Positions 30,869 through 33,786 of a stretch of 58,992 nucleotides of DNA are shown here, one piece after another. The stretch covers positions 1-58,992 of the forward strand of contig JAICLE010000009.1 in assembly GCA_025927545.1 (NCBI GenBank). Direction: 5' to 3'. The notes below the pieces were generated by a model, which worked only from the letters and a program-made list of their open reading frames with translations, was not told the DNA's origin and ran no database searches. How positions within the stretch are numbered: position 1 is the first letter of the stretch; each line of letters opens with the position of its first letter. The position numbers and the translations under genes are program-made. Origin of the DNA: Gemmatimonadales bacterium. Its GTDB lineage: Bacteria; Gemmatimonadota; Gemmatimonadetes; Gemmatimonadales; GWC2-71-9.

Positions 30869-31834
30869 TCACTGCGACACCCCCAGCCGGAAAACCAGGT
30901 CCACCGCCGGCCCGCCCGGCTCGAGGTCCTCCGTCAACCCGAGCCGCCACTCCCGTCCTGCCCGCGTCGCCAGAATCCACCCGAAGTCGAGCGACAGCTC
31001 TCGCCGGTCGAGTGCGGGGATGGTCGTATCGTGATAGTAGGGGCTGTGGTAGATCAGGTTGGCATAGAGCGACTGGCGTCCCCAGAAGCGCCAGCGCGCG
31101 CCCGAGCTCGCCGAGAGGAACGTCGTTCGTTGGAACGGCGCCAGCGCACCGTACGCCGGGGTGGCGCCCAGGCCGAGGCTGCCCTCGTAGACGAGCGGCC
31201 GAGCGACCGGCAGATGCACGGTCGTGACCACTCCGGCGGCCGGGACCCCGCGGCCGTATCCGGCCGGCGCAGTAGACGTCGGGAGCGTGAGCGACAGCAC
31301 GGTCTGCACACGGCTGCTGTGGCGCAGGCCGACAGCCGCGCGGACGTCGCCCAGGAAGAGGGCGCTCGGACGGCGCTGCAGCGCGACCCCGTTCGGCAGC
31401 TCGATCCGGTAGAGGAACGCATCATTGGGCCGGCGGTCCCGCTCCTCCAGGGTGATCCCCAGTGTGCGGTGATACCAGTTGAGGAAGCCGTCGAGGAAGC
31501 CGGCGTACGCCCCGCCGACCGAGGCGTCGAGCTCGAGGAACGCGCCCGGGCTCAGGTCCCGAGCCGCGCGGAGCCTGAGGCGCAGGATCTCGGCGTCCAG
31601 ATTGTAGTCGGCGCGCGGCAGCGTCGCGTGCTCGATGACGCTCGCGTAGTCGAGCGCCAGCGCGCCCGACCAGCCGCCGGGATGGGGCGGCCGGAGCGGC
31701 TCGAAGCCAAGCCCGGTCCTCGAGTCGGCTACCGGGTTGATGGGCGCATACGCCGGGAGGCCCTGGGCGCTGGCCATGGGCGGGATGAGGCAGCAGGCGG
31801 CGAGGGCGGCGAGGGCGAAGGCGCGGGGGGTCAC
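30869..31834 (-). CDS. DUF3187-like outer membrane protein
   Basis: 321 residues from GTG 31834 (TTG 31864 would add 10). A signal peptide (AFALAALAACCLIPPMASAQG) is followed by alternating beta-strand sequence typical of porin-like barrels: LALDYASVIEHA, LRLRLRAARDLSPGAFLELDASVGGAYAGF, YANLIYHSPYYHDT, and a final DLVFRLGVSQ. It resembles the DUF3187 family of outer membrane proteins of unknown role. It diverges from the leader-peptide promoter of the aromatic gene, with promoter regions back to back. Confidence 0.72.
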   Translation of the reverse strand: MTPRAFALAALAACCLIPPMASAQGLPAYAPINPVADSRTGLGFEPLRPPHPGGWSGALALDYASVIEHATLPRADYNLDAEILRLRLRAARDLSPGAFLELDASVGGAYAGFLDGFLNWYHRTLGITLEERDRRPNDAFLYRIELPNGVALQRRPSALFLGDVRAAVGLRHSSRVQTVLSLTLPTSTAPAGYGRGVPAAGVVTTVHLPVARPLVYEGSLGLGATPAYGALAPFQRTTFLSASSGARWRFWGRQSLYANLIYHSPYYHDTTIPALDRRELSLDFGWILATRAGREWRLGLTEDLEPGGPAVDLVFRLGVSQ

Positions 31835-31857
31835 GTGGTGGAGAAGATAATGCTCGC

Positions 31858-31887
31858 TTGACAAACGCGCGGGCGGCCCCGTACGTT
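31858..31887 (+). promoter_or_regulatory. Sigma70-like promoter of the aromatic leader
   Basis: Consensus -35 TTGACA (31858-31863), an 18-bp spacer and -10 TACGTT (31882-31887). The predicted transcription start falls at about 31894, the A of the leader ATG, so the leader peptide would be translated from a leaderless message. Confidence 0.7.
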
Positions 31888-31893
31888 GTTTCC

Positions 31894-31983
31894 ATGATCC
31901 GGTCGAACCGTGGGTGGTTCTACTTCTACTTTACCAGCGCCGGCGCGGCTCGATGCCCGTCCGGAGTCGGCAGGGTGCTGTAG
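31894..31983 (+). CDS. Aromatic amino acid leader peptide (WFYFYF)
   Basis: 29-residue open frame, ATG 31894 to TAG 31981. Residues 8-13 are Trp-Phe-Tyr-Phe-Tyr-Phe, six consecutive aromatic codons (31915-31932), a density hard to explain by chance in a short peptide. It is followed by a 13-bp terminator and then a gene for phenylalanine/aromatic synthesis. The layout is that of pheA, pheST and trp attenuators: ribosome stalling for lack of charged tRNA(Phe), tRNA(Tyr) or tRNA(Trp) would change RNA folding. Too short for standard gene calling. Confidence 0.82.
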   Translation: MIRSNRGWFYFYFTSAGAARCPSGVGRVL

Positions 31984-31999
31984 CGCTCACCGACCGGAC
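31959..31999 (+). promoter_or_regulatory. Leader hairpin enclosing the leader stop codon
   Basis: GTCCG-GA-GTCGG (31959-31970) can pair with CCGACCGGAC (31990-31999), ten pairs with a two-base bulge; the loop holds the leader TAG. A competing antiterminator is also possible: CCGGCGCGGC (31940-31949) can pair at nine of ten positions with GCCCCGCCGG (32009-32018), the 5' arm of the terminator. The pairings are computed by eye, not by energy. Confidence 0.55.
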
Positions 32000-32006
32000 C
32001 CCATCG

Positions 32007-32046
32007 ACGCCCCGCCGGAGCGATCCGGCGGGGCGTTTTTCTATTT
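32007..32046 (+). terminator. Attenuator terminator upstream of the PDT-DAHP synthase gene
   Basis: Perfect 13-bp stem: ACGCCCCGCCGGA (32007-32019) and TCCGGCGGGGCGT (32024-32036), with a GCGA tetraloop, followed directly by TTTTCTATTT. The strongest intrinsic terminator in the window, yet it lies between a promoter and its gene, as an attenuator should. Confidence 0.88.
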
Positions 32047-32064
32047 CACCAGCGGAGCAGATTC

Positions 32065-33786
32065 ATGCGCGTAGCGATTCAGGGCACCTACGGCTCGTTC
32101 AGCGAAGCGGCCGCTCGTCGACGGTGGCCGGACCTCATCACGGTGCCCTGCCGGGAGGCCCGGGACGTAGTCACCGCCGTGCGGACCGGGGGGGCGGAGG
32201 CAGGGTGTCTCCCGATCGAGAACTCGCTCATCGGCTCGGTCACCACCACGTACGATCTGCTCGAGGAGGCCTTCGGCGACGGTACGCTCCGCCTGACGCA
32301 TGAGATCCTCTATCCCGTCCACCACACCATCATGGGTCTGCCGGGCGCCCGGTTGGACGGGATCAAGCGCGTGCTCTCGCACCCCGTCGCGCTCGGGCAG
32401 TGCCAGGTCTGGCTCTCCGAGCATCTGCCGGCCGTCGAGCTGGTGAGCGCGTGGGACACCGCCGGCAGCGCCGAGCAGGTGGCCCGGGAAAAGAATCCGG
32501 CGCTCGCGGCGATCGCCGCCCGCCACGCGGCCGACGCCCACGGCCTGGTGCCCCTGGCGGAGCGGATCGAGGACGACCCCACCAATCAGACACGGTTTCT
32601 CACCTTCACTCCGGCGGCGGCCGCGCCCCTTCCCGTCGGCAACGCCGGGGCGAGCCGCTACAAGACATCGCTGATCGTCCTCATCGACCACAGGCCCGGC
32701 ATGCTGGCGCTCACGCTTCAGGCGTTCGGCGTACGTGGCGTCAACCTGATGGCACTGCAGTCCCGGCCGGAGCGTTCGGCCCCGTGGACCTACCGGTTCT
32801 ACGTGGACATCGACGGCGCGGCCAGCGATCCGAGAGTGGCTGAAGCGCTGGAGGAGGTCGAGGCGCTCGCGGCGAGGGTCGTGGTGCTGGGCAGTTACGA
32901 GGCGTGGATCGAGGGCTCCAGGCTCTCGGCGCCGCCGCCCACCCCGGCGCACCACACCCGGAAGCCGGACATCCCGCTGGTGGATCGGCGCCGCGCACCC
33001 GAGGGCACGCGCGTGCAGGTCGGACCGGTGACGTTCGGCGGGAGTGAGCGGGTGCTGATTGCCGGCCCCTGCTCCGTGGAGAGCGAAGCGATGATCCTGG
33101 AGACCGCGGAGGCGGTGGCGCACGCGGGAGCAGACATGCTTCGCGGCGGCGCCTACAAGCCGCGCACCTCGCCCTACGACTTCCAGGGACTGGGCGTCAA
33201 GGGCCTTCGCTATCTGGCGGAGGCGCGCGCGCGCACCGGGCTGCCGGTGGTCACGGAGGTGCTGAGCTGGGAGGAGGTCGCGGTGGTCGGGCACTTCGCC
33301 GACATGCTCCAGATCGGCGCGCGCAACATGCAGAACTTCACCCTGCTCCGCGCCGCCAGCCGGAACGGCAAGCCGATTTTGCTCAAGCGCGGAGCGGGCG
33401 CCACCATCGAGGAGTGGCTGATGGCGGCGGAGTATATCCTGGCGGAGGGGAATCCCCACGTGGTGCTGTGCGAGCGAGGCATCCGGACCTTCGAGCGCGC
33501 TACCCGGCACACGCTCGACCTCAATGCGGTCGCTATGGTGCTCGAGCGGACCCACCTGCCGGTCATCGTGGACCCGAGCCACGGGGCCGGCGTGCGCTCG
33601 CTGGTGACGCCACTCAGCCTGGGGGCGCTCGCCGTGGGCGCGGGCGGCCTGATCGTCGAAGTGCACCCCGACCCGGCCCATGCCATGAGCGACGGGGCGC
33701 AGAGCCTCGACATCCCCATGTTCGCCGCCCTTGCCCGCCAGGTCCATCCGGACCGACCGGCGCGGGCGCGAGTGGCGCTCGCATGA
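32065..33786 (+). CDS. Prephenate dehydratase-ACT-DAHP synthase fusion
   Basis: 573 residues. Residues 1-185 are prephenate dehydratase (IQGTYGSFSEAAA, CLPIENSLIGSV, TRF at 176-178). About 195-290 is an ACT domain (DHRPGMLALTLQAFGVRGVNLMALQSRP), the usual phenylalanine sensor. After a Pro-rich linker, about 315-565 is a DAHP synthase of the AroF/KDO8P-like type (IAGPCSVESEAMILETAE, GGAYKPRTSPYDFQGLG, DPSHGAG). The protein would catalyse both the entry step to the shikimate pathway and the phenylpyruvate-forming step, with one ACT domain able to sense Phe. No chorismate mutase domain is present, unlike the E. coli P-protein. GGAG precedes ATG 32065. Expression is probably set by the upstream attenuator. 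Confidence 0.93.
   Translation: MRVAIQGTYGSFSEAAARRRWPDLITVPCREARDVVTAVRTGGAEAGCLPIENSLIGSVTTTYDLLEEAFGDGTLRLTHEILYPVHHTIMGLPGARLDGIKRVLSHPVALGQCQVWLSEHLPAVELVSAWDTAGSAEQVAREKNPALAAIAARHAADAHGLVPLAERIEDDPTNQTRFLTFTPAAAAPLPVGNAGASRYKTSLIVLIDHRPGMLALTLQAFGVRGVNLMALQSRPERSAPWTYRFYVDIDGAASDPRVAEALEEVEALAARVVVLGSYEAWIEGSRLSAPPPTPAHHTRKPDIPLVDRRRAPEGTRVQVGPVTFGGSERVLIAGPCSVESEAMILETAEAVAHAGADMLRGGAYKPRTSPYDFQGLGVKGLRYLAEARARTGLPVVTEVLSWEEVAVVGHFADMLQIGARNMQNFTLLRAASRNGKPILLKRGAGATIEEWLMAAEYILAEGNPHVVLCERGIRTFERATRHTLDLNAVAMVLERTHLPVIVDPSHGAGVRSLVTPLSLGALAVGAGGLIVEVHPDPAHAMSDGAQSLDIPMFAALARQVHPDRPARARVALA

Follow-up and report, generated by a model that had tools for sequence, protein, structure and literature searches.

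The window analyzed here, a 58,992-nucleotide stretch of a contig from a Gemmatimonadales bacterium, contains a gene in which prephenate dehydratase and DAHP synthase are fused, with an ACT domain between them, preceded by a compact upstream region (Table 1). What a preliminary description had read from the letters of this region is borne out. The sequence TTGACA, 18 bp, TACGTT matches base for base, with the leader ATG at position 31894, 6 bp past the -10 box; the frame of 29 codons with its Trp-Phe-Tyr-Phe-Tyr-Phe run ends at a TAG codon (31981-31983); and the hairpin around this stop, as well as the terminator stem with its T tract (TTTTT at 32036-32040), both lie where they had been placed. 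The fusion gene also begins as described, its ATG at 32065 lying 28 bp past the terminator stem. Upstream, the listed TTG start of a divergent open reading frame with a DUF3187 domain (30869-31864) overlaps the -35 box of the leader, and the frame probably begins at a more internal codon.

Table 1. Features of the leader region and the gene behind it (positions within the window).
Feature	Positions	Strand	Details or basis
Sigma70-type promoter	31858..31887	+	-35 TTGACA 31858-31863, 18-bp spacer, -10 TACGTT 31882-31887
Leader peptide ORF MIRSNRGWFYFYFTSAGAARCPSGVGRVL, 29 codons	31894..31983	+	ORF found in all 15 orthologues
Control codons Trp-Phe-Tyr-Phe-Tyr-Phe (TGG TTC TAC TTC TAC TTT)	31915..31932	+	Phe run in 15/15
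Segment 2, antiterminator 5' arm	31939..31955	+	core 31939-31949 = GCCGGCGCGGC; pairs with 32009-32018
Hairpin enclosing the leader stop	31959..31999	+	arms 31959-31970 and 31990-31999; -23.5 kcal/mol
Segment 3, terminator 5' arm or antiterminator 3' arm	32002..32019	+	folding and comparison
Intrinsic terminator	32006..32040	+	stem 32006-32019/32024-32037, U tract 32036-32040; -32.1 kcal/mol
GGAG, likely ribosome binding site of the structural gene	32054..32057	+	sequence
Prephenate dehydratase, ACT and DAHP synthase fusion, 573 aa	32065..33786	+	type I, B. subtilis-like; full-length orthologues 71-91% identity

The full fusion occurs in 15 genomes of the family, the window's own included (in one, L096, a contig end cuts the gene and the DAHP synthase part is unseen). 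It is an uncommon arrangement, found only in this clade; elsewhere the two functions are encoded by separate, sometimes neighbouring, genes. When these relatives are aligned, as the preliminary description had suggested, none lacks the aromatic run or the terminator: promoter, leader, hairpins and terminator are complete in all 15, the terminator always stands between the leader and the structural gene, and the gene starts 160 to 191 nt downstream of the leader ATG. A covariance model of the leader, searched against 288 genomes of the order, recovers the 15 fusion leaders at E values of 1e-36 to 1e-20 and nothing else nearly as good, the weak matches elsewhere being mostly terminators. Apart from one (G037, E 3.5e-4), leaders before unfused genes escape the model, and the wider set described below was therefore gathered by gene synteny.

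Across the fusion orthologues the leader ORF is 26 to 29 codons long. Its frame, start position and aromatic run are kept while the nucleotides and the other residues drift. Phenylalanine is the only invariant aromatic residue, with at least two in every leader; tyrosine occurs in 12 of the 15 and tryptophan in 10, and the same number (10/15) contain all three. All 15 orthologues have TTT as the final Phe codon of the run (31930-31932 in the window). This codon is rare in a set of long ORFs taken from the window, where 60 Phe codons comprise 3 TTT and 57 TTC, and it outnumbers TTC (49 to 29) in the other leaders. As the last TTT sits at the folding switch described below, it may have been selected for slow decoding or to avoid pairing.

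The RNA between the run and the gene can fold in two mutually exclusive ways. Segment 2, which in most orthologues begins 7 nt past the end of the aromatic run, had been proposed to pair through 31940-31949 with the 5' arm of the terminator. This pairing holds up: 9 of 10 positions of the core match, the helix can be extended to 15 pairs (31940-31955/32002-32018), and in the alignment of the 15 sequences 93% of the cells of the core are paired with 32009-32018. When the 3' arm of the terminator is omitted, all 15 leaders adopt much the same shape, with segments 2 and 3 paired around the stop-codon hairpin; in the window this antiterminator (31939-32021) has a predicted energy of -50.8 kcal/mol. 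The 153-nt leader as a whole folds with a z score of -4.3, and none of 200 dinucleotide shuffles folds equally well. The stop-codon hairpin is kept in all orthologues and shows a few compensatory changes. Covariation within the fusion clade is not above that of shuffle controls (15 sequences, counts based on a MAFFT alignment) because the cores hardly vary, and we therefore place the weight on diverged leaders and on shuffled spacers.

To follow translation, a ribosome was stepped through the leader with one codon after another in the A site; the RNA that it covers and the RNA 5' of it were deleted, and the rest of the transcript made up to that point was folded. Over the 15 species, segment 3 is sequestered at 0.82 as long as the ribosome is within the run and short of its last codon, and at 0.48 afterwards. 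Shuffling the spacer between the run and the terminator abolishes this switch (0.67 and 0.63). In most species the steepest drop falls at or beside the last aromatic codon with ribosome footprints of 12 to 17 nt; in two fusion orthologues the switch comes 9 codons too late when the footprint is 15 nt. In these models, formation of the antiterminator thus depends on the position of the ribosome at the control codons.

The termination state differs from the E. coli trp-type geometry, as a ribosome at the leader stop covers 0% of segment 2 in 15/15 orthologues. Before segment 3 is made, the accessibility of segment 2 is 0.40 with the ribosome stalled in the run and 0.20 once it has reached the stop codon (a decrease in 13 of the 15 and an increase in none), and this loss of access comes from pairing, not occlusion. 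Since the ribosome at the stop codon leaves segment 2 uncovered, termination would rely on a segment 2 tied up in other pairing, or on timing. Equilibrium folding that allows pairing across the ribosome restores the 2:3 helix. Folding at equilibrium with no ribosome at all also prefers this helix (0.78 in the fusion clade), which makes the uninduced ground state uncertain.

We conclude that the region is, with high probability, a ribosome-mediated transcription attenuator with a leaderless leader peptide, a prediction from comparative sequence analysis and modeled folding. The pheA- and trp-type logic that had been claimed for it is supported by the conservation in 15 of 15 orthologues and by the folding results. 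According to this model, RNA polymerase would begin the transcript with the A of the ATG, and its 5' end would be loaded directly by a ribosome. When aminoacyl-tRNA for phenylalanine, and probably also for tyrosine or tryptophan, is scarce, the ribosome would halt in the run and hold the upstream RNA off segment 2; the free segment 2 would then join segment 3 in one long antiterminator that encloses the stop-codon hairpin, and the gene would be transcribed. With a good supply, the ribosome would clear the run, cover segment 2 and then sit at the stop codon, where it would block the stop-codon hairpin while segment 2 is tied up by neighbouring RNA. Segment 3 would then be left to pair with the 3' arm of the terminator (segment 4), ending transcription.

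Leaders with the same organization also precede unfused DAHP synthase genes. Among 160 genomes drawn evenly from the phylum Gemmatimonadota, we collected the regions upstream of 74 type A (the leader type) and 46 type B DAHP synthase genes, the latter a paralogue used as a control, and scored an aromatic run as at least four aromatic residues in ten. Such runs occur in 43 of the 74 type A regions, in 2 of the 46 type B regions and in 12 of 370 shuffled controls. Examples of mixed runs before unfused DAHP synthase genes are YSWYWY, YYFAFWF and RFYYYASYW, met ahead of this sampling, and FYAFYYYF and FFFGYFWFSY from the sample itself. A terminator is present in 39 of the 43 type A leaders. One of these leaders (L237), which has a TTG start and no promoter, was left out as spurious, leaving 42. 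The type A leaders span about 28 genera in five families of one class; none was seen in the other class, from which few genomes were sampled. Their terminators differ in sequence from that of the window, so that complementarity has been kept through sequence change.

The type A leaders repeat the folding behavior of the fusion leaders. In 38 leaders, segment 3 is sequestered at 0.82 with the ribosome stalled and at 0.48 after the run, compared with 0.68 and 0.64 in shuffles (p of about 5e-19, uncorrected for relatedness, as the leaders are related and not fully independent). The switch point lies between -1 and +2 codons from the last aromatic codon in 84% of the type A leaders versus 14% of the shuffles. 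In the gene tree, the leader-bearing unfused DAHP synthases fall into one clade (100/99), together with two for which no leader was seen, and the fused enzymes form a clade of their own (100/100). The DAHP synthase domain of the fusion does not group with support with the leader-bearing unfused clade, and we therefore do not claim common descent of the two sets of leaders.

The preliminary description held that one leader senses all three aromatic amino acids, a reading that is unproven for this locus: across the fusion orthologues phenylalanine alone never varies, and tyrosine and tryptophan are missing from some. A purely Phe-sensing attenuator of the pheA or AroR kind, in which the Trp and Tyr codons are incidental neighbours, is a serious competitor, with a probability only a little short of even. 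The residue totals of the 15 fusion leaders (51 Phe, 14 Tyr and 10 Trp) speak for it, as does the prephenate dehydratase encoded by the same gene, and in Corynebacterium glutamicum the AroR leader, with Phe-Tyr-Phe before aroF, responds to Phe and not to Tyr (PMC11802643). Against a Phe-only switch, tryptophan heads the run in 10 of the 15 fusion leaders despite being a rare residue, and in the 42 type A leaders Tyr residues (127) exceed Phe (75), with 36 Trp. Tyrosine is present in all 42 of these leaders, phenylalanine in 34 and tryptophan in 27, and 21 contain all three.

We infer that in the fusion clade, whose gene also makes phenylalanine, sensing is mainly for Phe, and that the leaders of unfused DAHP synthases in the wider phylum read mixtures of Tyr, Phe and Trp. 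Since mixed runs are the rule before unfused DAHP synthase genes in other genera, sensing of several aromatic amino acids, up to all three, is plausible for the wider family on the basis of codon content. A more far-reaching interpretation, held with moderate confidence, is that Gemmatimonadota possess a family of leaderless attenuators that read tryptophan, tyrosine and phenylalanine together, so that a shortage of any one opens the DAHP synthase gene, with a codon mix tuned by lineage to the enzyme: Phe-biased with the fused prephenate dehydratase, Tyr-rich elsewhere and Trp-rich at some of the other DAHP synthase copies. The two type B leaders, with the runs LWYWSW and LWWRW, both look real, and each Trp-rich leader has a promoter and a terminator (MSYPIRPTLWYWSWRDIRGGPGCV, L285 in G074; MTSVAFRHLWWRWRGFSRGRPWCA, L298 in G282). 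They are possibly a Trp-tuned version of the device on the other DAHP synthase copy.

Leaderless initiation of the leader peptide is well supported as a prediction from promoter position. The predicted transcription start is 31894 or a few bases off, so that the start codon coincides with +1 and a Shine-Dalgarno sequence has no room. All 15 fusion orthologues carry TTGACR, a spacer of 17 to 18 bp and a TANNNT-like box, followed by 6 bp to the ATG in all except two, where the gap is 8 to 9 bp; the promoter spacing is thus kept throughout, and in no orthologue would the promoter exclude the leader from the transcript. The same leaderless geometry is predicted for all 15 fusion leaders and for nearly all of the other leaders, with the -35 element of the type A leaders 34 to 42 nt ahead of the start in nearly all cases. 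A short 5' untranslated leader ahead of the ATG, in an otherwise identical attenuator, is improbable. Real start sites may deviate from the prediction by 1 to 5 nt, and the two orthologues with the wider gap would fit such a leader, but the usual distance from the -10 box puts the start 0 to 3 nt ahead of the ATG, too little for a Shine-Dalgarno sequence, and the spacing is kept here and in the other leaders (35 to 38 nt from -35 to start in most).

A mechanism in which read-through is set by a protein, a small molecule or T-box-like tRNA binding, with the ORF incidental, is very improbable: ribosome-free equilibrium folding does already sequester segment 3, but Rfam gives no riboswitch or T-box match, the frame, start position and aromatic run are retained in an ORF that otherwise drifts, and in diverged leaders the folding switch follows the position of the last aromatic codon, an effect that shuffling abolishes. 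More broadly, the Rfam search of the leader returned no Phe or Trp leader or other family above the gathering score; a match to ctRNA_pGA1 (23.6 versus 45 bits) was rejected as a chance hit below threshold.

The predicted attenuator shares elements with several known systems. Like E. coli pheA (pheL) and pheST (pheM), it combines a Phe-rich leader with competing antiterminator and terminator hairpins, and with pheA it shares control of a prephenate dehydratase. Unlike it, pheL and pheM read phenylalanine alone, no Rfam match links them to the leader of the window, and the enteric Phe leaders carry a Shine-Dalgarno sequence. The E. coli ilvGMEDA and thr leaders are similar in that a single leader reads several amino acids of the downstream pathway; those amino acids are branched-chain ones or Thr/Ile, whereas here they are aromatic, and both E. 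coli leaders are led by a Shine-Dalgarno sequence.

The closest precedent is C. glutamicum AroR, in which a leader with Phe and Tyr codons also stands before a DAHP synthase gene; the likeness is one of arrangement only. The aroR-aroF attenuator was described by Neshat et al. in 2014 (as cited in PMC11802643), and the leader had been seen earlier (PMC4046766). A response to ribosome stalling at aromatic codons, which is predicted here, would be shared as well. AroR differs in its three reported aromatic residues, compared with 4 to 8 here, often including Trp, and the present leaders belong to a different phylum, include a clade with a prephenate dehydratase fusion and are spread over many genera. 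In Actinobacteria, a comparative study turned up no RNA element for phenylalanine or tyrosine that was conserved (PMC1262725).

Contrary to the preliminary description, leaderless translation of a leader peptide is not unusual, with precedents in Streptomyces lividans (TrpL1, LeuL and IlvL; PMC8079986), at ilvB of C. diphtheriae (PMC5784534) and at trpL of Sinorhizobium meliloti (PMC7298713). In those leaders, as predicted here, the start codon is the 5' end of the RNA; the leaderless leaders of S. meliloti, Streptomyces and Corynebacterium are specific for Trp, Leu, Ile/Val or Thr and do not precede a DAHP synthase gene. For Gemmatimonadota, a little-studied phylum, we found no attenuator with a leader peptide described in the openly accessible literature. 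The switch is therefore of a known type, ribosome-mediated attenuation, in a new variant at the entry enzyme of the pathway and in a new phylum.

If the prediction is true, leaderless initiation with coupled transcription and translation would be a working regulatory device in Gemmatimonadota, and one leader reading three tRNA charge states would form a natural OR gate at the step that opens the common aromatic pathway. At this step, enteric bacteria use three enzyme copies and repressor proteins instead. Because dozens of diverged leaders share one geometry, reporters could directly probe the spacing between codons and segment, the loading of leaderless RNA and the sensing of several amino acids.

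Other leaders and upstream elements came to light in the family. Eleven unfused prephenate dehydratase genes (L148-L158) have no convincing Phe leader. They share blocks such as CCCGAATATATCCCGAA and CTATCGGCAAGG directly upstream, perhaps a repressor site or another control. Two further unfused prephenate dehydratase genes are preceded by Phe-rich leaders, one in G086 (L159) with a GTG start, a promoter and a terminator (VTRAFTFAFFFFGFP, TFAFFFFGF) and one in G059 (L160) with promoter-like boxes and a terminator (LFAYSLWFAF). Within the window's own genome (G000), where other leaders were sought by promoter pattern, the regions upstream of trpE and leuA yielded no leaderless Trp or Leu leader with the one filter used. 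A leader-like ORF on contig C60 (MLLLRNLSLTSSASPCRST; L167:1501, - strand), which has leaderless promoter geometry and a terminator and stands before an apparent gene for a secreted protein, is probably due to chance. Another candidate for a leaderless attenuator in the same genome (G000:C80:1639-1870; L169:1501-1733; L328) consists of a promoter, the ORF MIMRSAVCSRSAAVPLFSGAMACCCMRNLLPDRTT with a Cys-Cys-Cys run and a terminator, and precedes cysH (PAPS reductase) and an apparent sulfite reductase gene. Three relatives (L329, L330 and L331) have the same ACCC core and promoter spacing ahead of cysH.
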